NCBI GenBank assembly: GCA_023144895.1
Contig: JAGLEV010000055.1
Span: forward strand, 1-54,458
From: Thiotrichaceae bacterium
GTDB lineage: Bacteria; Pseudomonadota; Gammaproteobacteria; Thiotrichales; Thiotrichaceae
Length of the DNA stretch: 54,458 bases
Direction: 5' to 3'
The notes below the pieces were generated by a model. It did not search any database. It was not told the DNA's origin and saw only the letters and a program-made list of their open reading frames with translations. Position numbers and translations under genes: made by a program. Positions 25,443 to 48,690 of this stretch are shown here, one piece after another (positions within the stretch are counted from its first letter, which is position 1; every line of letters starts with the position of its first letter).

Positions 25443-27248
25443 TTAGGTAGAGTTTTTAACTTTTGCTAAAAAGCTATCACAGTCGATACCTGTATCATAG
25501 AAAATACGATCTAACTTTTCTCTAGGAGTCGTTAGTAAGCTTTCTCTATCATTGATACCATGCTCAGCAAGTATTCGAGCAATTTTACCATCATCACCAC
25601 CCATGAGTGTAAAATTATTTGCTGGTTCACTAATAGCCACTGACTCTGCAATATTTTCTGTTACTGAACTTGTTGTATCCATCTCATCATTGGTGACTGA
25701 TTCTACTTTATCGGTAACACTTTCTGCTGTTGACATTGCTGTATCAGTCACATCATTTGCTACTGAACTTCCTTTGTCAGTAACGCTGTCTATCATTGAG
25801 CTTGCTGTATCTGCAACATCACCTGTGACTGAACCTACTTTATCAGTCACACTTCCAGCTACTGAATTTGCTTTGTCTGCAATATCACCCGTTACTGAAC
25901 CCACTTTATCAGTAACACTACCTACCACTGAGCTTGCTGTATCAGTAACACTTCCAGCAACTGAACTTGCTTTGTCTGCAACATCACCTGCTACTGAACC
26001 TACTTTATCAGTAACACTTCCAGCAACTGAACTTGCTTTGTCTGCAACATCACCTGTGACTGAACCTACTTTATCAGTCACTGAGCTTGCTGTATCGGTA
26101 ACGCTTTCAACAACTGAATTTGCTTTGTCTGCAACATCACCTGCTACTGAACCTACTTTATCAGTCACACTTCCAGCAACTGAGCTTGCTTTGTCTGCAA
26201 TATCACCTGCTACTGAACCTACTTTATCAGTAACACTTCCAACAACTGAGCTTGCTGTATCGGTAACGCCCCCAACAACTGAACTTGCTTTGTCTGCAAC
26301 ATCACCTGTTACTGGACTCACTTTATCCGTCACACTTCCAACAACTGAGCTTGCTGTATCGGTAACGCCCCCAGCAACTGAGCTTGCTTTGTCTGCAACA
26401 TCACCTGCCACTGAACCTACTTTATCAGTCACACTTCCAGCAACTGAGCTTGCTGTATCGGTAACGCTTCCAACGGCTGAGCTTGCTTTGTCTGCAACAT
26501 CACCTGCTACTGAACCTACTTTATCAGTCACACTTCCAGCAACTGAGTTTGCTGTATCGGTAACGCTTCCAACAACTGAGCTTGCTTTGTCTGCAACATC
26601 ACCTGCCACTGAACCTACTTTATCCGTCACACTTCCAACAGCTGAACTTGCTGTATCCGTAACGCTCCCAGCAACTGAACTTGCTTTGTCTGCAACATCA
26701 CCTGCCACTGAACTTGCTGTATCGGTAACGCTTCCAACAACTGAACTTGCTTTGTCTGCAACATCACCTGCCACTGAACCTACTTTATCAGTCACACTTC
26801 CAGCAACTGAGCTTGCCGTATTGGTAACACTTCCAGCAACTGAACTTGCTTTGTCTGCAATATCACCTGTTACTGAACCCACTTTATTCGTCACACTTCC
26901 AACAGCTGAACTTGCTGTATTCGTAAGATTTCCTGCGACTGAGGTGGTTTTATCAGCAATACTTTCTGTGACTGAACCGACTTTATCGGTAACAAACTCT
27001 GAGCCTCGTGCTGCCAACTTATCTGCTGATGCTGTAAATTTTGATACTGAAATATTAGCATCCTGACTACTTGAATCAGCGCTCAATGATCCAGCTGTAG
27101 CTGCTCCAATTCCAGCAACAACTCCAGCAGCTCTGCCTTTACTGCCGTTATTACGACAAAACAGTTTCTTAAGGAAAGAGCCTAACAATAAACCAATAAG
27201 AAAAGTTGCTAGTAATAGAAAAATAGTTTGAATAACAAAAGCAATCAT
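25443..27248 (-). CDS. Membrane-anchored protein of 11/22-residue repeats
   Basis: The 601-residue protein has an N-terminal membrane segment (about 5-27), a Gly/Ala-rich stretch, and then about 400 residues of near-identical 11-residue units alternating as VADKASSVAG and VTDKVGSVAG types. Such hendecads give long amphipathic helices, as in LEA and apolipoprotein-like proteins. After a more varied tail comes a short globular C-terminus (about 545-601: ILAEHGINDRESLLTTPREKLDRIFYDTGIDCDSF). The start overlaps the small upstream gene by four bases (ATGA). It is third in an operon with an OmpA/BON protein, so an envelope or periplasmic spanning role is likely (inference). Confidence 0.8.
   Translation of the reverse strand: MIAFVIQTIFLLLATFLIGLLLGSFLKKLFCRNNGSKGRAAGVVAGIGAATAGSLSADSSSQDANISVSKFTASADKLAARGSEFVTDKVGSVTESIADKTTSVAGNLTNTASSAVGSVTNKVGSVTGDIADKASSVAGSVTNTASSVAGSVTDKVGSVAGDVADKASSVVGSVTDTASSVAGDVADKASSVAGSVTDTASSAVGSVTDKVGSVAGDVADKASSVVGSVTDTANSVAGSVTDKVGSVAGDVADKASSAVGSVTDTASSVAGSVTDKVGSVAGDVADKASSVAGGVTDTASSVVGSVTDKVSPVTGDVADKASSVVGGVTDTASSVVGSVTDKVGSVAGDIADKASSVAGSVTDKVGSVAGDVADKANSVVESVTDTASSVTDKVGSVTGDVADKASSVAGSVTDKVGSVAGDVADKASSVAGSVTDTASSVVGSVTDKVGSVTGDIADKANSVAGSVTDKVGSVTGDVADTASSMIDSVTDKGSSVANDVTDTAMSTAESVTDKVESVTNDEMDTTSSVTENIAESVAISEPANNFTLMGGDDGKIARILAEHGINDRESLLTTPREKLDRIFYDTGIDCDSFLAKVKNST
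25720..26960 (-). repeat. Tandem 66-bp (22-residue) coding repeat tract
   Basis: The DNA coding for the alternating units VGSVAGDVADK / ASSVAGSVTDK repeats with 33/66-base periodicity over about 1.2 kb. Units are very alike at the base level, so copy number is likely to change by slippage or recombination. Ends are approximate. Confidence 0.75.
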
Positions 27249-27358: not shown

Positions 27359-29308
27359 CTATTTTTTATTAATAATAAATGTGATTCTACGATTTTTAGC
27401 CATGCCTTCTTTTGTTGTATTATCAGCAATTGGCTGTGTTTCACCACGCCCTACCGCTCTAAGCTGGCTGGCACTAGTGCCTTTCTTAACTAAGTAACGC
27501 TTAACAGATTTTGCACGTTGATTACTCAATGCTAAATTATACTCATCAGCACCTCGTGAATCAGTATGACCGCTAATAGTAATTCCATCACTAATTTCAG
27601 ACTTACAGTTCTTCATCACTTGAGAAATCGTATCTAATAACTTCGTACTTTCTGATTTAATGGTTGATGAGTTAGTACGGAATTGGATACTTTCCCCAGC
27701 CATTGCACTATTAAGGTCTGACTGACATTGCTCCTTAGGCGATACTTCTGTTGTCTTAGCTAACTCCTCTTCCTTAGCCTTAGCTGCTAGCTCCGCTTCT
27801 TCTTTGACTTTTTCCTCAGCCGCTACAGCTTCTTCCTTCTCTTTAGCCTCCGCTTCTTCTTTGGCTTTTTCCTCAGCTTCTGTAGCTTCTTCCTTCTCTT
27901 TAGCCTCCGCTTCAGCCTTAGCTTTTGCTTCTTCTTCAGTTTCTTTCTCGACTTCAGTCATTGATGTTGTCACGACAGTATCATCTGTATCTGTCTTCGT
28001 TGAACTAGTAACAACAGCATCAGCATCTTGTACATTATCAATAATAAGGTTATTGATGACTTTAAGGCTATCAGAATCTAATAGCTCTTTCGCTTTTTCA
28101 AGCTTGCTATCCATTATTGACTGGTTATCAACAGCACCTGTTAATGTAAGACCTGACTCATCAATCGATAAACTACCTTCATCGGTAATCAAGCCAATAA
28201 TATCTTCAGCATTATCTAACCAAGAAGAAGGTTTGATATTCGTTTCAACAGTGATCTTATTAATAACATTGCTTTTACGAACCTTAGAAACTGCGGCTTT
28301 GAAGATAGCATCACGCTCTTCCTCTGTAGCAACAACGCCCTTCAGAATCATTTTATTAGCACTATCCATTTCTACTAAAAGAGATAGAGGATCTGTAGCT
28401 TTTACTGCTTCTTTACTGATATCTGTATCAGTTGTTGCTGTTTCTTCTTCAGTATCCTTTGCTTCTTCTGATGCTGTTTCTTCTTCAGCATCCTTCGCTT
28501 CTTCTGTTACCGTTTCTTCTTCAGTATCCTTCGCTTCTTCTGATGCTGTTTCTTCTTCAGTATCCTTCGCGTCTTCTGATGCTGTTTCTTCTTCAGTATC
28601 CTTTGTGTCTTCTGTTACCGTTTCTTCTTCAGTATCCTTCGCTTCTTCTGATGCTGTTTCTTCTTCAGTATCCTTCGCGTCTTCTGGTGCTGTTTCTTCT
28701 TCAGTATCCTTTGTGTCTTCTGTTACCGTTTCTTCTTCAGTATCCTTCGCTTCTTCTGATGCTGTTTCTTCTTCAGTATCCTTTGCTTCTTCTGATGCTG
28801 TTTCTTCTTCAGCATCCTTCGCTTCTTCTGTTACCGTTTCTTCTTCAGTATCCTTTGCGTCTTCTATTACCGATTTTTCTTCAGTATCCTTCGCTTCTTC
28901 TGATGCTGTTTCTTCTGGTGCTATTTCTTCTTCTGATTCATTAGCTTCTGATTCATTACTATCGGTAGTATCAGAATCACTGCCTTCACCAGCAACTTTA
29001 ATATTATCTTCAACGACACGAACACCGTTCACACCTTGAACTAATTTAATAATCTCTGTTTTAGCATCGACATTAGGAGCTAAACCTGACAATAAAATAT
29101 CACGCCCGCGCTCATCAATTTCAACATTTGCCCACTCTCCACTATTAGCAGACAATTCAGTTTCTGTACGGTCTTTAAGATCCACTTCAATTGGATCTTT
29201 ATTAAGATTGAACATCAAAAAATAGGTAGACACCAGACCTAACCCAGTGATTAACCACCAAGCTCCTTTAGCGAACCCATTACAACAACATTGTTCTTTT
29301 TTCATCAT
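27359..29308 (-). CDS. OmpA-family protein with BON-like domains and acidic repeats
   Basis: The 649-residue protein has an N-terminal membrane segment (about 13-33) after a CCC cluster, a BON-like domain (about 50-105: DILLSGLAPNVDAKTEIIKLVQGVNGVRVVED), 13 units of a 12-residue acidic repeat (type KDTEEETASEEA, about 140-295), more BON-like sequence (about 305-445), a Glu/Ala/Lys coiled-coil stretch (about 465-530), and a C-terminal OmpA/MotB peptidoglycan-binding domain with ISGHTDSRGADEYNLALSNQRA and GRGETQP. It likely links the inner membrane to the cell wall. It leads an operon with a 33-residue peptide and the hendecad protein. Confidence 0.88.
   Translation of the reverse strand: MMKKEQCCCNGFAKGAWWLITGLGLVSTYFLMFNLNKDPIEVDLKDRTETELSANSGEWANVEIDERGRDILLSGLAPNVDAKTEIIKLVQGVNGVRVVEDNIKVAGEGSDSDTTDSNESEANESEEEIAPEETASEEAKDTEEKSVIEDAKDTEEETVTEEAKDAEEETASEEAKDTEEETASEEAKDTEEETVTEDTKDTEEETAPEDAKDTEEETASEEAKDTEEETVTEDTKDTEEETASEDAKDTEEETASEEAKDTEEETVTEEAKDAEEETASEEAKDTEEETATTDTDISKEAVKATDPLSLLVEMDSANKMILKGVVATEEERDAIFKAAVSKVRKSNVINKITVETNIKPSSWLDNAEDIIGLITDEGSLSIDESGLTLTGAVDNQSIMDSKLEKAKELLDSDSLKVINNLIIDNVQDADAVVTSSTKTDTDDTVVTTSMTEVEKETEEEAKAKAEAEAKEKEEATEAEEKAKEEAEAKEKEEAVAAEEKVKEEAELAAKAKEEELAKTTEVSPKEQCQSDLNSAMAGESIQFRTNSSTIKSESTKLLDTISQVMKNCKSEISDGITISGHTDSRGADEYNLALSNQRAKSVKRYLVKKGTSASQLRAVGRGETQPIADNTTKEGMAKNRRITFIINKK
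28424..28891 (-). repeat. Tandem 36-bp coding repeat, 13 units
   Basis: Thirteen 12-residue units (KDTEEETASEEA type with variants such as ETVTEDT) are encoded by 36-base repeats inside the OmpA-like gene. The units differ at a few positions only, which favours length change by slippage. Confidence 0.85.
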
Positions 29309-40808: not shown

Positions 40809-40943
40809 TAAGACAATTTATCAACCCATAGTAGAGAAGCAACTGAATATGCTGTTTTCCCGACCATAGTGTAAAATCTTGAGACTAAGTGATGAGTTGC
40901 TTGAGATATCTGCTATCTAAGTTTTGGCACTCTGTTAAATATT

Positions 40944-41099
40944 ATTCTGGTATTAAAAAAGTGTAAAAAATTTGATGATGTCCTCTTTATCAATGCCAGC
41001 GAGCACTTTGAAAAAGTTAAATGCCAAAATGAATTATTGCCAGAGCATATTGATAAAATCGTAGAAACTTATCAAAACCGCAAAGAAGAAAAACGCTTA
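40944..41099 (+). pseudogene. Remnant of type I restriction methylase (hsdM), C-terminal part
   Basis: A 52-codon stretch on the plus strand reads ILVLKKCKKFDDVLFINASE, then HFEKVKCQNELLPEHIDKIV, then ETYQNRKEEKRL. This matches the conserved tail of HsdM (LFINAS.EFEKGK.QN.L..EHI.KIV..Y..R.EE). There is no start, no catalytic NPPF motif and no other half, so it is a broken gene. It ends exactly where the minus-strand hydrolase gene at 41097 ends, suggesting the neighbouring operon arrived through a break in hsdM. Confidence 0.75.
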
Positions 41100-41789
41100 G
41101 CCTTTTATTTTCTCAATCACACCCTCTTTAATCGTACTGCTTTTCCATACAACTTTTAATGATGAATTAATAAAATCATCTGGAATCAACGTCGGTCGTT
41201 TACGAAAGGGTGCACGACGATCACGCAATACAACGCCTTCTTCATCCATAGACTCCTTCATACAAAGATACACAAACTCAGTACACGAAAGATTATTATA
41301 GCGAGAAAAATCAAATTGGAAATCATAAGGAGTACCAAGCTCCATCAATGCACGATTATAAATATTATCGACATCTTCTTGGCTCACTTTTGATGGACGC
41401 AACACAACAATATAGTCACAGCGACAGAAGTTAAGCAGATCTTCCATAAACACGCCTTCTGCCATTGCATGAACAACAATTTGCTCTCCTTCTGCATAAA
41501 ACTGGTCTTTTACAGAAGGTAACAAGGTAATATTATTTTCATTCGGCACATTCCCCAAATACAAAGCGGCATGAGAGAAATAACCTGGTATAAAATAACC
41601 ATCCAAATAGTTTTTATAACCTCGTATTAATATATCACCTGCCTCTAAGGTGTTCATGATTTCACGGGTTTCATTACCTTTAATAAGATAACTACCAGGA
41701 TCATAGAGGATAAAAAATGGAAATTTAAAAACCTTAATATCACCAAATATGCGTAAAGTTGTATTATAAACTTTAGTCCAGAATGTCAT
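41097..41789 (-). CDS. YiiX/YebB-like permuted NlpC/P60 cysteine hydrolase
   Basis: The 230-residue protein matches the circularly permuted NlpC/P60 (YiiX-like) layout: EAGDILIRGY, then GYFSHAALYLGN (His73), VVHAMAEGVFMEDL, and LSCTEFVYLCM (Cys169) near the C-terminus. Family members act on acyl groups or lipids more often than on peptidoglycan. The first 35 residues include a hydrophobic patch (FKFPFFILYD) that could touch membranes. The start overlaps the phospholipase D-like gene by four bases (ATGA), so both products are made together and may act on the same lipid. The substrate is unknown. Confidence 0.75.
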   Translation of the reverse strand: MTFWTKVYNTTLRIFGDIKVFKFPFFILYDPGSYLIKGNETREIMNTLEAGDILIRGYKNYLDGYFIPGYFSHAALYLGNVPNENNITLLPSVKDQFYAEGEQIVVHAMAEGVFMEDLLNFCRCDYIVVLRPSKVSQEDVDNIYNRALMELGTPYDFQFDFSRYNNLSCTEFVYLCMKESMDEEGVVLRDRRAPFRKRPTLIPDDFINSSLKVVWKSSTIKEGVIEKIKG

Positions 41790-43159
41790 GTTAAAATCCT
41801 TTTGTACTCACCTTTATTCAATTCCTTCTGAATTGATGTGGGAATCATCTCTGCATTAATCATTAAATCTCGCTCATGCAAGGGGCGATCAAAAGCATTT
41901 TCTTTCGGTAGCTTAGATTCAATTTCACTCAAGTTAACACGCTTACAATCTTTAAAATCCTTAATAAACTGTTGTTTAACCTGCTGTGCAAAATCATCAT
42001 TATAGACAAAAATATTGCTTTCTGAGTGATGGTAAGTTGAGCCACGTGCAAGATTATAAGAACCCACTGAAGCCACTTTATCATCGACTAAAAAGTTTTT
42101 AGAATGAAATGCCCCCTCTAACTGCCACTCATAAATATGAATCCCATCACCTAACAAGCCACGATAATATTTTGTACACTCTTGATACATCCAGCCCATA
42201 AGACCTTTTGCCATCAATGAACGTGCAGAATCTTTAGAGTTAGTAATCAAGTGTACTTTCACACCACGCTTCACTGCTGCAGCTAAATATTCACCATAAA
42301 TCTTGGGTGGACGCACACCATGACAACCCCAATAAATTGATTCCTGTGCACCTTCAATTAAAGATAAAAATGCATGGGTCATGGTTAATTCATTATCATC
42401 ATAAGGCTTGTGTGCCACATAACGTACGGCAACATCACCTGCCTGAGCGGGCTGTTCAGGAAAATACTGTGGATTATCGGTCTGGATTTTTTCAGCCGTT
42501 AGCACTGTTTGCTGTTGAGCAAAATCAGGATAAAAACTAGGCTGTGATGAGGTTCTATTATCCCATATTTTATAACGGGTAAAATCACGCAAAAATTGTG
42601 TTTGAATGTCAGTAACAATACTCCCTTGAAGATAGACATCCGTATCACGCCATGCAAAAGATTTGATCCCACCAAAGGCATATTTATCACCCCAATTGAT
42701 CCCACCTAAAATCACTTCACTACCATCAATAATCATATATTTTTCATGATAATGACGCTTTAGTTTTAGCTTAATATTACGCATTATATGACGAAATGGC
42801 TTTTTAGGAATGGGCAACCACTCTTCAAATAAGCCATTGTATTGGTGTACCCGTGCGCCTGCTTTCGATAAACGACGGATCATTTTCCCTGCAAAAGTAC
42901 TACGGTTGACAATCTCATCAAGAATAATACGTACTTCAACATTCTGTTTTAACTTGCGTAGTAAAATTTCTTCTAGCTTTTCCGTTGTTTCATCCTTCAT
43001 CATCGAAAAAGTAGCAATATGTATTGATTGCTGTGCTGCTTCTAACAACTTCCAGCGTATCGCATAGGACTCTCCTCCGCTTGGGAGAAATTTTATTTTA
43101 TTATTCTCACGGATTTCACTGTGAGTCAGCAAGTCTAGCTCATCTTGATAATAGGTCAT
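41786..43159 (-). CDS. Phospholipase D-like protein with two HKD motifs
   Basis: The 457-residue protein has two phospholipase D (HxKxxxxD) motifs: HEKYMIID (His138, Lys140, Asp145) and HSKNFLVD (His352, Lys354, Asp359). Both are complete, so it should be a working phosphodiesterase or transphosphatidylase, such as a cardiolipin-synthase-like enzyme. There is no signal peptide or membrane segment, unlike cardiolipin synthases ClsA. It is first in a two-gene operon with a YiiX-like hydrolase. Phospholipid remodelling or a nuclease/toxin-type role are the alternatives. Confidence 0.85.
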   Translation of the reverse strand: MTYYQDELDLLTHSEIRENNKIKFLPSGGESYAIRWKLLEAAQQSIHIATFSMMKDETTEKLEEILLRKLKQNVEVRIILDEIVNRSTFAGKMIRRLSKAGARVHQYNGLFEEWLPIPKKPFRHIMRNIKLKLKRHYHEKYMIIDGSEVILGGINWGDKYAFGGIKSFAWRDTDVYLQGSIVTDIQTQFLRDFTRYKIWDNRTSSQPSFYPDFAQQQTVLTAEKIQTDNPQYFPEQPAQAGDVAVRYVAHKPYDDNELTMTHAFLSLIEGAQESIYWGCHGVRPPKIYGEYLAAAVKRGVKVHLITNSKDSARSLMAKGLMGWMYQECTKYYRGLLGDGIHIYEWQLEGAFHSKNFLVDDKVASVGSYNLARGSTYHHSESNIFVYNDDFAQQVKQQFIKDFKDCKRVNLSEIESKLPKENAFDRPLHERDLMINAEMIPTSIQKELNKGEYKRILT

Positions 43160-43247
43160 TAATCTGCCTTGAACAAAAAAGTATCAAAACAGTATAGTTG
43201 ATTGTTATTACTATTGAAATAAACATCTTAGATGACCATTATAAACC

Positions 43248-43298
43248 AGCAGTTCCCGTTAGATTTTTAGCTGAAGGGTTGATGGTTCGCCATTCTTC
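43248..43298. repeat. Dispersed repeat, copy B
   Basis: It starts AGCAGTTCCCGTTAGA and shares about 50 bases with copy A at 32093. Its first bases also equal the ends of the MITE-like element at 11305. It lies in the 309-base gap between the phospholipase D-like operon and the AT-rich cassette. The rest of that gap holds only the terminator at 43400. Confidence 0.5.
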
Positions 43299-43399
43299 TA
43301 AAAAAAGGCAAAGCCCACAAAATTTTAAAGACTTCTATGATGAGCTTTACAGAAGCAAGGAGAACAGCTGATTATAAACTTATCACTATATTTCAGCAC

Positions 43400-43436
43400 A
43401 AAAAATGCCACACAATAGGGTTAATATTGGTGGCAT
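43400..43436 (-). terminator. Terminator of the nuclease-ParA cassette
   Basis: ATGCCAC (43405-43411) pairs with GTGGCAT (43430-43436), extended after a bulge by CAAT/ATTG. On the minus strand the stem is followed by TTTTTGTGC. It lies 32 bases past the coiled-coil gene. Confidence 0.75.
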
Positions 43437-43468: not shown

Positions 43469-44035
43469 TTAATTAATATGTTCTGCGAGCATAGCAATTA
43501 TTTCATTAGATTCCTCTAGCTTCTGGTCTAATATCTTCTTTTTACTAAATAGCTCAAGTGTTTCTTCAAGATGTCGTGTATATTTTACTTGCTTTTTAAG
43601 TAATTTAACTGACTTCTCCAAAGGCTCTATAGAATCGTATGCTTTTTTACTATCTATTGAGATATTCGATTTAATTGTTTCAATATGCTGAAATGCTAAG
43701 TTACAAGTCTTCTCTTTAACTAATGAGTTATTACTATCAATCTTTTTAGCAAGAAGATCTATATCAGTAAATGGTGCATTTTTACCATCAGGTGCGGTTG
43801 AAATAGAGAGCTCTAATTGTAGCTTTTCCTTCTCTTCACGTAGTTTAATTGCATCAGTCCGCATCTTCTTGATGCTTTCTTTATAAGTTATACGCTTTTT
43901 ATCCATATCTTTATAAGCCATTAGAATGTTCTCTAATACTTTGATATTATCGCTTCCTTGCGCTATGGAATTAGCTTGTGACGGGTTCTTTCTCTTTTCC
44001 ACAACGGATGATGTTATCTCTTTCACTGGTATCAT
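43469..44035 (-). CDS. Coiled-coil protein, partner of nuclease-ParA fusion
   Basis: The 188-residue protein is almost wholly helical and charged, with heptad-like stretches (about 60-80 and 120-185: KLREEKEKLQLELS, KSVKLLKKQVKYTRHLEETL). No known domain or DNA-binding motif is recognised. Its start lies inside the tail of the nuclease-ParA gene (65-base overlap) with a good AAGGA ribosome site, so the two are translationally linked. Small helical partners of ParA ATPases often stimulate ATP hydrolysis or bind DNA, so this may be the ParB-like or adaptor subunit (inference). Confidence 0.7.
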   Translation of the reverse strand: MIPVKEITSSVVEKRKNPSQANSIAQGSDNIKVLENILMAYKDMDKKRITYKESIKKMRTDAIKLREEKEKLQLELSISTAPDGKNAPFTDIDLLAKKIDSNNSLVKEKTCNLAFQHIETIKSNISIDSKKAYDSIEPLEKSVKLLKKQVKYTRHLEETLELFSKKKILDQKLEESNEIIAMLAEHIN

Positions 44036-45137
44036 TATTATTATTCCTTAGTTGATTTATAGTGAGGTTGTCTAGTAAATATTCTGATAATCTTAGGAAG
44101 TCATCACGAGGGTGACAACGACCACCAATAGTTTTAAAAGCTAAATCGGGTTCACTTCCCCATTTTTTTAATATAGTACTCTCTCTAATACTGACTTCTT
44201 CTGGATCAAGAATGATACATTTTTCATCTGTATGTTGAGAAAGTATATACTTAACTGATCTCAATCTATCAAGCTCTTTAGCTGTTGGTTTATTATATTT
44301 ATTTAAGAGTATAAATATATCTGCTACTTTATTTATTTCTCTTATTTGTTTTATTGTCCTCAATAAAACTTCAGCATTATTTCCTATATCCAATGGGGAA
44401 CTCAATGAAGTAGGAATAATAAAACTCTCTGTTTTTTCAAATAATCTAGATTTATTTCTCTCAATGGCAGGAGAACAGTCAAAAATAGTAATGGATTCAT
44501 TACTATTTAAACTTTCATTCCAGCCACCTATTTTTAAAACCTCTATTTTACTATTTTTACCCGTTCTTGAGTTAGGTACGATAGCAGTATCACCCGTTAG
44601 ACCATATAGGTTTTCTTCTGGATCTCCATCAACAATATTGACTCGGTATCCTGACAATGCAAAAGCCCCAGCCAAATGAGCAGAAACTATGGTTTTACCC
44701 ACTCCACCCTTTGCTGTAAAAATAGAGATATAATGTGGCTTTGTCGGCTCTATAGGTTCTAGAGGTTGTTTGTTCCCCATGTAATCCCAAACAATTTGAC
44801 GAGAGGAAAAATGCCCCATTTGAAAATTCTTTAATTTTTGAGTTCTTATTGCAGTAAGAGCAGCAACACTAAAGCCCGTTGCAGAGATAATAGCACCATA
44901 CTTATAATCACTAGTCTCCATAAAATCTCTAAATTTCAATACGGCACTAATTGGAAGCTTATTTTTATAATTTTTAACCTGAACAGCAATAGTCATTCCA
45001 TTTTTTGTTGCTAATAAATCATAACCAGGCTCATTTTGTTTAGAGTTCAATTGAACATCAAATCCCATTCTTTGATATTCCATTCCAATGACTTTTTCAA
45101 AATCGAATGCATTATCAAAAACAACTGAAGCGCTCAT
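43971..45137 (-). CDS. Mrr-like nuclease domain fused to ParA-type ATPase
   Basis: The 388-residue protein has two parts. Residues 1-118 match the Mrr-type restriction endonuclease fold: Glu20 in the first helix, GYDLLA with Asp40, and AVQVKNYK with Gln53 and Lys55, the expected D-(x12)-QxK site. Residues 134-360 are a ParA/MinD-like ATPase: deviant Walker A KGGVGKT (143-149), VDGDPE (Asp170, Asp172) and FDCSP (Asp220). The nuclease would cleave or bind DNA and the ATPase would provide ATP-driven dimerisation on DNA. The gene is AT-richer than its neighbours and preceded by a perfect palindrome. Neither a classic ParB nor a methylase is adjacent. Defence or segregation are both possible. Confidence 0.8.
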   Translation of the reverse strand: MSASVVFDNAFDFEKVIGMEYQRMGFDVQLNSKQNEPGYDLLATKNGMTIAVQVKNYKNKLPISAVLKFRDFMETSDYKYGAIISATGFSVAALTAIRTQKLKNFQMGHFSSRQIVWDYMGNKQPLEPIEPTKPHYISIFTAKGGVGKTIVSAHLAGAFALSGYRVNIVDGDPEENLYGLTGDTAIVPNSRTGKNSKIEVLKIGGWNESLNSNESITIFDCSPAIERNKSRLFEKTESFIIPTSLSSPLDIGNNAEVLLRTIKQIREINKVADIFILLNKYNKPTAKELDRLRSVKYILSQHTDEKCIILDPEEVSIRESTILKKWGSEPDLAFKTIGGRCHPRDDFLRLSEYLLDNLTINQLRNNNNDTSERDNIIRCGKEKEPVTS

Positions 45138-45167: not shown

Positions 45168-45186
45168 TTGCTAATATTATTAGCAA
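45168..45186. promoter_or_regulatory. Perfect 19-bp palindrome before the nuclease-ParA gene
   Basis: TTGCTAATATTATTAGCAA has 8-bp perfect arms around ATT, 31 bases before the start codon. A run of T precedes it on the plus strand and no T run follows in the direction of the cassette. It suits an operator or a parS-like site for one of the cassette proteins. Confidence 0.5.
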
Positions 45187-45283
45187 TATGATAGAAATTC
45201 AAAAAAACTTGACAAAAGGGGGCAGTAAAGAGTAAAGAAAGTAAGCTAACTAGCCGAATGTTGCTATTTCCTGTAACGTATTG

Positions 45284-45877
45284 ATGATGAAACCTTATGC
45301 TAAATCCTGTGAGCAAAACCAAGCGGTGATACTTGATGTCATTAAACCCTTATTAGCCAATAGCCAAACAGTATTAGAAATTGGTAGTGGCACAGGGCAA
45401 CATGCGGTGTATTTTAGTCAAGAAATACCTCATTTATACTGGCAAACCAGTGATTGTGTCGAACATCATGAAGGCATCCAGCAATGGATTGATGATGTTT
45501 ATAATGAAAAACTATTAGCTCCTATTGCACTCAATGTAGGTAAAAATAGGTGGCCCGCACACTGCTACAACACAATTTTCACAGCAAATACTTTGCACAT
45601 TATGAGTCATAAAGATGTTCTTGCCCTCTTTGCTCAACTTCCAACAAGCCTACAAGAGAAAGGTCAGTTTATTGTTTATGGGCCTTTTAACTATCATGGT
45701 CACTACACTAGCCAAAGTAATGAGCGCTTTGATGAATGGCTACATTCTCGTGATCCAGACAGTGGTATTAAAGATTTTGAATGGCTCAATGAATTAGCTG
45801 GGCAAGCGGGGTTGAAACTTACTGAGGACTATACAATGCCAGCTAATAATAGAATACTTTGCTGGCAGAAAGTTTAA
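45284..45877 (+). CDS. DUF938 SAM-dependent methyltransferase-like protein
   Basis: The 197-residue protein matches DUF938: MMKPYAKSCEQNQAVILDVI, the SAM-binding VLEIGSGTGQHAVYFSQ, and the late GPFNYHGHYTSQSNERFDEWL. The family has a class I methyltransferase fold; the substrate is unknown. ATG 45284 is chosen over TTG 45281; ribosome site is weak either way. It stands alone between the minus-strand cassette and the glycosidase-like gene. Confidence 0.85.
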   Translation: MMKPYAKSCEQNQAVILDVIKPLLANSQTVLEIGSGTGQHAVYFSQEIPHLYWQTSDCVEHHEGIQQWIDDVYNEKLLAPIALNVGKNRWPAHCYNTIFTANTLHIMSHKDVLALFAQLPTSLQEKGQFIVYGPFNYHGHYTSQSNERFDEWLHSRDPDSGIKDFEWLNELAGQAGLKLTEDYTMPANNRILCWQKV

Positions 45878-46098: not shown

Positions 46099-48690
46099 TT
46101 AGTTCACTAGGACTAAACGCCCAAAGTGTTGAGGGCTTTTCCACGCTTTATCCTGAGTTGCATTCCAAGCCAGCTTACCATCACGATGACCTCCATCATC
46201 ATCATCATTGACTTGAATATCAATACCAATACTTTGCCCCGTTCTAGGACGTACACCTAAAATAGACCATGGAATTGATGCCTCTAAAACATAACCATCG
46301 TGTGTTTTAATCATCTTGTGTCGTACACCCGTAATATTTTTACGTGGTGAGTTTTTGCCTAAACCAATGCCATAATCCTTCCAGCGAAACATAAACTGGA
46401 AATCATTTTTACCATCATAGCTTGCTGTTCGGCTACCATCAGCATCAATAAAGATCTCAATAGAATCATCACCCCAAGGTTGCTGAGAATCTTTAATAAA
46501 ATAATCATCCGTCACATCGACACGAAGATGTAAGCTCTTAGCATCCCAATGAGCCTGCCAAGCAGCCGCTAAATCATTACTGTCTTGGATGCGCCCACTA
46601 ATTGCCTTCATTAAGCGCATCTCTGATTGTGGTGAGAATATTCTCTGAGGATTACGCACCCGTCCAATCGGCTGTTCATTCCCAGTTAAACGACTTGGGC
46701 GAACAACCACTCTACGCTTTGTCGTACTGACCTTAACTATTTGTGGACGATAAGCTTGCCGTGGTGCTGGAGCAGGTGCTGGAGGCGTATATGTCTGCCA
46801 TACTGCAGATCTTTTAGGCAATACAGGCTTTCTTGGCATAACCGCTGCAACCACTACAGGACGTGGTGCTGGTCGTACTGACCGACCTGGCAACCTTATC
46901 GACATCAAAGGATCAGCAGCAGGTAACGGGTACGCAACAGGAAGTGGTCGCGCTGCTGGAATCGGTCTAACTCTTCCAGCTAAAACAATACCTGGCTTAC
47001 TCTTAACCACATCAGCAGATACAACACCTTGAGAACTTTTGCTTCCCGTCCGACAGCCTGCCCACCAACAAGGGGACATGCGATTAAATGCCATTAATGC
47101 TTGATATTTAGGTGCTTCTTTAGAGGGCTGAGTAATATATTCTTTAATTCCCCAGCTACCTAACCAAGTATTGATACGGGGTGAAGAGAAGGCAACAAAA
47201 GTCTCTCCACCTGCATCCTTCCAGCCTTTTAAAAAGCTAAAATACAAAGCCGCCATGCGACGATCTTTATTAGCAAAAATCAAATGACGATTAGGTCCTT
47301 CATTCACACTATGCGTTTTATAAGCAACCAGATGCTGCCCCCCTTCATAAGCAATTAAGCTCACGCCATATTTTTTTGCTACCTTTGCCTGCATACGTAC
47401 CGTCTTTAAGATACTTGGCACAGAGTAACGATTTTTAGGATCTTTAAGTCGCTGAAATATTTCATTAACACTGCGAACCTTACGAATAGTTTTTTGATCA
47501 ATATAAAAATAGGGAGCAACCGCTAAAGCATCAACATATTTATAAGCATTTTCAAAACCTAATAAAGTATTTGATAAACGCTTATTCGTTGTCATTGCAC
47601 CCATCACCCGAATAATATTTTTAGTTGAACCGTAAACATCTTCCCATATTTTAAAGATCTCGACACTACGACGAGAATAGAATTTATAACCTGCCACATC
47701 TTTGTGTCTATCAAGACGTGCTTTTAAACCCATTTTCTTCATATAATGGGCTTGAGTAAAAATACCATTCCATGCTTCATTGGTATATTCAACATAAGGT
47801 TTAAGACCTGTCTTTAAGTGTTCTTTAACGTATTTCGCATAATTGTAAACAAAACTATTATCGGCACGATGTGGCAAATTAAACCATGGGTTTGCATTAA
47901 GAATATTTGCCAACTCAACCATAACCTCCAAGGGCACACCACGTACACCCTCTTTACCACCCCATGTCGACTGAGATGTATTAGGACGATTCTGCCATCG
48001 CATTAAACCATTACGTGTAATACCTGACATATTCATAAAGCGAATCACCTTAAAATCTTTCATAAAGTTTAAGTAGTCTGGATTAAACGTTATATGCTTG
48101 TGGTAGCGCTCAAAGGACAAATACTTTTTTGTTTTGCAATGATGTTTACTAGGAACTCGTCTAAACTTATTTCCTGCACAAATCCCTCCTGGCATTAAGA
48201 TTTGTAAATGACGAATATGATTTTTAGGATTTGTTTCCATGATAATAACAGAGGCACTAATACGACCATTTTTACCTGGCTTAATACGAATAATATCACG
48301 ACCTTTACTATGTTTTACTAGCTTGGCATCAACACCATAACGTAACTTTCCCTCACCATCATAAAGTACAGTATACAAACCCGTTGGAATAGTATTAGCA
48401 GGTAAATTGCTAATAAAACGTGTCCCTGCTTGACCACCGTGTAAATTTTTAGGCCAACCATTATTATCATAAGTAATTTTGCCCTTGGTTAGCCAAGGGC
48501 GCGCATGTTCAAAAGGTAATGATAGTTTAAATAGATCGACAAAAGGAACACTGGCATCGATATCCATTGCTTCATTGGTATTCATACCTAATGCAGAGGC
48601 AACATTGGGAGAAGCAGCATAACTGCTTACAAGCATACTGTTGACAGCCAACAACATAACGGCACTTAACACTCTTGTTATTATTTTCAT
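46099..48690 (-). CDS. Secreted glycosidase-like protein with C-terminal CBM9-like domain
   Basis: The 863-residue protein has a Sec signal (cleavage near SYA-ASP, residue 26), a strand-rich N-terminal region, a TIM-barrel-like region (about 200-540) with candidate acid/base Glu305 in YTNEAWNG and candidate nucleophile Glu449 in AYEGGQH (spacing and contexts fit clan GH-A enzymes), a long Pro/Ala/Arg-rich linker (about 565-680), and a C-terminal CBM9-like domain (about 690-863: WDAKSLHLRVDVTDDYF, DSIEIFIDADGSR, ASIPWSIL). It would bind and cut a polysaccharide outside the cell. The substrate is unknown. It is a single gene on the minus strand. Confidence 0.75.
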   Translation of the reverse strand: MKIITRVLSAVMLLAVNSMLVSSYAASPNVASALGMNTNEAMDIDASVPFVDLFKLSLPFEHARPWLTKGKITYDNNGWPKNLHGGQAGTRFISNLPANTIPTGLYTVLYDGEGKLRYGVDAKLVKHSKGRDIIRIKPGKNGRISASVIIMETNPKNHIRHLQILMPGGICAGNKFRRVPSKHHCKTKKYLSFERYHKHITFNPDYLNFMKDFKVIRFMNMSGITRNGLMRWQNRPNTSQSTWGGKEGVRGVPLEVMVELANILNANPWFNLPHRADNSFVYNYAKYVKEHLKTGLKPYVEYTNEAWNGIFTQAHYMKKMGLKARLDRHKDVAGYKFYSRRSVEIFKIWEDVYGSTKNIIRVMGAMTTNKRLSNTLLGFENAYKYVDALAVAPYFYIDQKTIRKVRSVNEIFQRLKDPKNRYSVPSILKTVRMQAKVAKKYGVSLIAYEGGQHLVAYKTHSVNEGPNRHLIFANKDRRMAALYFSFLKGWKDAGGETFVAFSSPRINTWLGSWGIKEYITQPSKEAPKYQALMAFNRMSPCWWAGCRTGSKSSQGVVSADVVKSKPGIVLAGRVRPIPAARPLPVAYPLPAADPLMSIRLPGRSVRPAPRPVVVAAVMPRKPVLPKRSAVWQTYTPPAPAPAPRQAYRPQIVKVSTTKRRVVVRPSRLTGNEQPIGRVRNPQRIFSPQSEMRLMKAISGRIQDSNDLAAAWQAHWDAKSLHLRVDVTDDYFIKDSQQPWGDDSIEIFIDADGSRTASYDGKNDFQFMFRWKDYGIGLGKNSPRKNITGVRHKMIKTHDGYVLEASIPWSILGVRPRTGQSIGIDIQVNDDDDGGHRDGKLAWNATQDKAWKSPQHFGRLVLVN

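Follow-up and report, generated by a model that had tools for sequence, protein, structure and literature searches.

The window analysed here, a stretch of 54,458 nucleotides from a Thiotrichaceae genome, carries on its minus strand a gene whose predicted product joins an Mrr-type nuclease domain to a ParA-type ATPase, followed by an overlapping gene for a helical protein. The two genes and the elements around them are listed below.

43971-45137, minus strand: open reading frame of the Mrr-ParA fusion (388 amino acids), with an N-terminal Mrr_cat PD-(D/E)XK nuclease and a C-terminal deviant Walker A ATPase.
44841-45107, minus strand: Mrr_cat nuclease domain, residues 11-99 of the fusion (PF04471, E 1.9e-13).
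44058-44738, minus strand: ParA-type ATPase domain, residues about 134-360 of the fusion (PF01656, E 2.3e-14).
43469-44035, minus strand: partner open reading frame (188 amino acids), all-helical/coiled-coil, overlapping the tail of the fusion by 65 bases.
45215 to 45188, minus strand: promoter-like site before the fusion (TTGTCA from 45215, TATCAT to 45188).
45168-45186, no strand assigned: palindrome TTGCTAATATTATTAGCAA (8-3-8) just downstream of the promoter-like site, a possible operator.
About 43399-43436, minus strand: intrinsic-terminator-like hairpin and U run after the partner (-13.2 kcal/mol, z -2.9).
40941-41102, plus strand: truncated hsdM/N6_Mtase remnant (57 of 311 model positions).

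The fusion proved to be built as the earlier note had described it, with both domains passing the Pfam cut-offs (51 bits against 21 for Mrr_cat; 53.8 bits against 25.4 for CbiA/ParA, covering residues 137-295). Its nuclease residues are E14, D40, Q53 and K55, and the ATPase motifs KGGVGKT (143-149), VDGDPE and FDCSP represent the deviant Walker A, Walker A' and Walker B, respectively. Both folds are present in the AlphaFold2 model (mean pLDDT 69.6, with a weak C-terminus). The ATPase half superposes on ParF, a plasmid protein (4dzz; VIA-align Z 18.0, rmsd 2.7, 187 residues), and the nuclease half on phage-encoded restriction endonucleases (Foldseek rmsd 1.7-2.0 A, about 91 columns); by profile, the nuclease half also matches the LlaBIII nuclease. 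The Pfam scan gave Mrr_cat-type and ParA-type domains only; Mrr_N was not found, nor was any other sensor or modification-reading domain of the SRA or wHTH kind recognised. No model in Pfam, NCBIfam, PHROGs or PADLOC describes the whole protein. The best NCBIfam model, ParA_partition (NF041546), scores 58.7 bits, and the values obtained with this model (58.7, 65.4 and 63.3 bits) all lie below its curated cut-off of 180. The fusion corresponds to no catalogued PADLOC 2.0 system, with weak partial matches to ZorD, PDC-S02, mad8 and PDC-M28B, the last confined to 44 residues around the P-loop (E 7.5e-4). Rfam returned no RNA element.

Five other intact fusions, 36-61% identical to that of the window, and a seventh locus at which the fusion has decayed turned up when whole genomes and genome contigs were searched.

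G028, locus L021, Thiotrichaceae relative: 61% identical to the window fusion.
G066, locus L022, Thiotrichaceae relative: 59% identical.
G017, locus L023, Thiotrichaceae relative: 50-51% identical.
L024, metagenome-assembled genome labelled Campylobacterota: 38-39% identical.
L025, metagenome-assembled genome labelled Campylobacterota: 36-37% identical.
G023, L041 1-600 and L042 1-456: decayed fusion start and intact partner.

The earlier note had raised the possibility that the nuclease residues might be lost in most homologues, and this is not what we see: E14, D40, Q53 and K55 are invariant in all six fusions, across two phyla, as are G144-T149 of the ATPase (including the P-loop lysine), D170, D172, D220 and P223. 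The signature lysine is replaced by Thr in one of the six, that of L023. Between L021 and L022, pN is 0.10 and pS 0.80 in the nuclease domain, and pN 0.16 and pS 0.79 in the ATPase domain, with synonymous sites saturated in both; the gene is under purifying selection, nuclease domain included. Its carriers are a few sulfur-habitat bacteria. The fusion is present in 4 of 63 genomes of the order, in a single genome (the window's own) among 369 sampled from the class, and in one of 397 sampled from the class of the L024 genome. A wider search with the nuclease-domain profile in 398 Pseudomonadota genomes returned 20 other Mrr-type matches, with no P-loop in the frames extracted. At the G023 locus, the start of the fusion is recognisable by blastn (9e-13 to L022), interrupted by stop codons and frameshifts, with about 1 kb missing. 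Close by on L041 is a gene for a protein 35% identical to the CBM9-domain protein encoded at 46099-48690 of the window.

The product of the second gene is indeed predicted to be all-helical, as had been claimed, with helices at residues 19-75, 92-124 and 136-187 (pLDDT 77.8, the first 18 residues being poorly predicted) and a conserved section that corresponds to the C-terminal helical hairpin, about 92-187. No family in Pfam, NCBIfam or PADLOC describes it, and comparison with PDB folds, which says nothing either way for long helices, gave nothing with E below 0.3. Homologues occur in G028, G017 and G023, and the partner directly follows the fusion in three of the four Thiotrichaceae fusions (window, G028 and G017). 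Since the fusion has relatives in two phyla and the partner has homologues in three other genomes, chance is excluded as the origin of both genes. However, a partner profile found no match in the assembled genomes of G066, L024 and L025, half of those with an intact fusion, although absence from G066 is less certain because this metagenome-assembled genome is only 84% complete. The genes that follow these partnerless fusions encode Uma2 in L022, FlgE in L024 and a deaminase in L025. Conversely, in G023 the partner remains intact, split across two contig ends that have 145 identical bases in common, though the fusion upstream of it has decayed. The partner can thus persist after the fusion has decayed, and the fusion can exist with no partner beside it. 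On the genomes compared, the partner is a real gene that is not obligatory for the fusion, and it cannot be essential to the fusion family; the two-gene system proposed in the earlier note describes part of the Thiotrichaceae, and does not hold for the fusion as a whole. Nor is the 65-base overlap, which is private to the window genome, a conserved coupling, because it is produced by a 28-residue tail that the Thiotrichaceae relatives lack: their fusions end at about residue 360, and the gap before the partner there is 25 or 82 bases. In L023 the partner is extended at its N-terminus by a long low-complexity stretch, and Trp is absent from all four partners.

The pair is AT-richer than its surroundings, as stated previously (32.6% G+C against 38.8% for the window, with 2% of equal-sized windows as low). 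It was also said to be framed by a palindrome and a terminator of its own. Both are present in the window. The sequence upstream of the fusion relatives shows no such palindrome, and a centromere or conserved operator at this position was accordingly rejected. Sites like the promoter-like site are equally frequent in shuffled sequence, and the terminator-like hairpin was not picked up by a strict terminator scan. A short open remnant at 43222-43371 on the plus strand (DDHYKPAVPVRFLAEGLMVRHSSKKRQSPQNFKDFYDEL...), lying between the PLD gene described below and the pair, is matched by no Pfam family and is perhaps what is left of a mobile-element gene. Elsewhere in the window, two minus-strand open reading frames at 25443-27248 and 27359-29308 consist of many near-identical repeats (GSVTDKVGSVAGDVADKASSV... 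and EEAKDTEEETVT...), from which the long antisense frames opposite them follow.

On one side, the neighbours of the pair in the window are the hsdM fragment, a YiiX-type amidase and a PLD-family protein, and on the other a DUF938 gene. The broken hsdM of the earlier note is real; a second partial N6_Mtase begins at the edge of another contig of the same genome (C75). The YiiX/Peptidase_C92 amidase and PLD-family genes (41097-43159, minus strand) overlap by four bases, and their best models are not defence families, leaving one hsdM fragment as the sign of a defence island. This part of the earlier claim is therefore weak for the window, and fares better in L025. The DUF938 gene (45281-45877, plus strand) adjoins the fusion here and lies near rsmG-parA-parB in several congeners, the region being rearranged; it is present in all six genomes compared, whereas the five congeners searched have neither the PLD gene nor the fusion, and the position of DUF938 beside an Mrr-ParA fusion is probably a coincidence.

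Among the relatives, the fusion often sits among housekeeping genes. In L025, 10 bases separate dxs from the start of the fusion; 90 bases beyond the fusion comes a dCTP-deaminase-type defence gene (PADLOC E 1.1e-124; 357.7 bits with the NCBIfam anti-phage dCTP deaminase model, under its cut-off of 400), and after it genes for an ICEA-type restriction enzyme and for a D12 methyltransferase. In L024 it stands alone between pyrG and flgE, four bases from the latter, in what is apparently a single-gene insertion, and less than 4 kb away are genes of the type IIG restriction-modification and AAA/PDDEXK_9 kinds. Another AAA/PDDEXK_9 gene is next to the decayed fusion of G023, and the G028, G017 and G066 loci consist of ordinary genes with a transposase-like fragment or a Uma2 gene. 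L025 has the strongest defence neighbourhood, one of seven loci, which are too few for enrichment statistics.

Plasmid-partition neighbourhoods, the other outcome the earlier note had considered, were seen at no locus. Protein searches gave no full-length relative of the fusion on plasmids, phages or viral contigs, with none among 72,556 plasmids; a DNA search of plasmids likewise gave no full-length relative, and no full-length relative of the partner was found in viral contigs. A plasmid or phage origin of the fusion was rejected on these grounds. The absence of ParB noted earlier was borne out, as the partner matches no ParB model in Pfam or NCBIfam, and there is no centromere-like repeat array at the window locus. 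The chromosomal ParA of the host is intact on another contig, and the fusion was therefore rejected as its replacement.

The known work of ParA-type ATPases is to move and position cargo, both DNA and protein. The explanation we prefer, to which we give about an even chance, is that the fusion is a restriction-type defence DNase, encoded on the chromosome and spread horizontally, in which the ParA ATPase would gate the Mrr nuclease in cis. Strict conservation of the nuclease residues argues for cutting. The patchy distribution over two phyla, the decay in G023, the apparent single-gene insertion in L024 and the defence block of L025 together point to mobile defence and not partition, and the decay and the insertion would fit gene gain and loss. 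Also in its favour are the purifying selection that takes in the nuclease domain, the restriction-type neighbours in L024, the lack of full-length relatives on the plasmids, phages and viral contigs searched, the host's own ParA elsewhere in its genome, and two precedents described below, the HEPN-ParA/Soj dyad and PDC-M28B. Set against a defence DNase are the single strong defence neighbourhood among seven loci and the lack of a recognised sensor domain, as far as domain models can tell. It is possible, if rather doubtful, that the fusion goes further and represents a new class of single-chain immune nuclease, whose ParA ATPase, through its dimerisation cycle, surveys or patterns on DNA and decides at which site or at what time the Mrr domain cuts, with an optional, lineage-specific coiled-coil regulator.

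We infer DNA cleavage, ATP gating, a trigger, a role for the partner, horizontal spread and defence, and picture the cycle as follows. With ATP bound, the ParA domains would pair into a sandwich dimer with non-specific affinity for DNA; two Mrr domains would thereby meet on the DNA, and both strands could be cut. ATP hydrolysis would free the dimer and keep the enzyme off the host chromosome, until an infection-linked change lengthened the life of the dimer and licensed cutting. This change might lie in the DNA, if it is modified, unprotected or of unusual structure, or in the state of the nucleotide or of the partner. In the Thiotrichaceae, the partner probably fills a ParB-like role, binding the ATPase domain and setting its rate of hydrolysis. 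ParA partners are usually encoded just downstream, and several work through a charged N-terminus (PMC8262871); by this analogy, the helical protein could regulate the ATPase in one lineage.

The same position of the partner, immediately downstream as is usual for ParA adaptors (PMC8262871), would also suit a positioning system with the logic of McdAB or ParABS, in which ParA sits on the nucleoid, the partner is an ATPase-stimulating cargo adaptor, and the Mrr fold is an extra DNA-holding domain replacing the N-terminal HTH of type Ia ParA. We think this unlikely. It would accord with the ParF/Soj folds of plasmids being nearest to the ParA domain, with the Thr at the signature lysine of L023, a position at which McdA also deviates, and with the low-complexity extension of the L023 partner. 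Against it, the partner is missing from three of six genomes and kept beside a decayed fusion, and a domain that did no more than hold DNA would not be expected to conserve its nuclease residues so strictly; the partners lack the invariant C-terminal Trp of McdB, and ParB, centromere-like repeats and full-length matches among the plasmids are all wanting.

The G023 locus, where the helical gene survives its decayed neighbour, shows the order of loss expected of a toxin-antitoxin or addiction module with the fusion as toxin and the helical protein as antitoxin. The overlap of the two genes in the window would suit such a module, and a ParA/Soj-like ATPase beside a HEPN RNase has been proposed as a toxin-antitoxin dyad (PMC3710099). 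We nonetheless regard it as quite improbable: three fusions have kept their active sites in genomes whose assemblies show no partner gene, the putative toxin gene precedes the antitoxin gene, and there is no carriage by plasmids or phages. A chromosomal location, purifying selection and frequent housekeeping neighbours would also be compatible with a DNA-repair, recombination or nucleoid-maintenance enzyme unrelated to phages, and Mrr-fold domains may also act in repair or DNA binding. A core repair gene, however, would hardly be confined to 4 of 63 genomes in its order, be absent from almost all genomes sampled, and decay in one without evident replacement, and we regard this possibility as quite improbable too.

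If the fusion is a gated defence DNase, a conserved and intact nuclease domain would turn a ParA ATPase into a nuclease switch. The protein is small and testable, in that ATP-driven DNA association and DNA cleavage should be separable by point mutations, and the locus is a clear example of a partner gene that is present beside some fusions and gone from others.

Compared with known systems, the fusion passes the cut-off of the Mrr_cat family and keeps its D..QxK set, in line with the motif of a catalytic acid followed by (D/E/Q)xK (PMC3874153). Unlike type IV Mrr enzymes of the EcoKMrr type, it is without Mrr_N, and it carries its nuclease at the N-terminus, joined to a ParA ATPase. With type Ib ParA proteins (ParF of TP228, Soj) it shares the deviant Walker A, A' and B motifs and the ParF fold, and differs from these partition ATPases in its nuclease and in having no ParB, centromere or plasmid carriage; neither a ParB match, nor a repeat array, nor a full-length plasmid match marks a ParABS locus. 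McdAB likewise consists of a ParA-type ATPase and a coiled-coil protein whose gene comes directly after that of the ATPase. The ATPase of the fusion differs in carrying a nuclease, no compartment operon is seen near it, and by the one feature compared, the C-terminal Trp invariant in McdB (PMC8262871), the four partners are unlike McdB.

PDC-M28B, a PADLOC candidate, also places a ParA-like ATPase in a defence setting. It has a KGGVGR variant where the fusion has the canonical KGGVGKT, and no Mrr domain is evident in the two members read, L045 and L048; given this variant and the different N-terminus, we rejected it as the same family. In L045 (1495-3272) and L048 (1474-3181), the KGGVGR ATPase gene lies directly downstream of a short gene that looks HEPN-like by eye, with an HsdS-like gene adjacent in L048, an arrangement resembling the HEPN-ParA/Soj dyad (PMC3710099). 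In that dyad, proposed as a conflict or toxin-antitoxin module, a HEPN RNase gene (MAE_18760) accompanies a ParA/Soj-like ATPase gene (PMC3710099), and the nuclease is thus an RNase acting in trans, whereas the fusion has a DNase-type domain in cis and its partner matches no HEPN model in Pfam or NCBIfam. The fusion would be the DNase-in-cis counterpart of these proposed dyads. We found no paper on an Mrr-ParA fusion in open-access text, and provisionally regard this as an undescribed architecture, in which both halves are of known kinds and their fusion, in two phyla, appears to be new.
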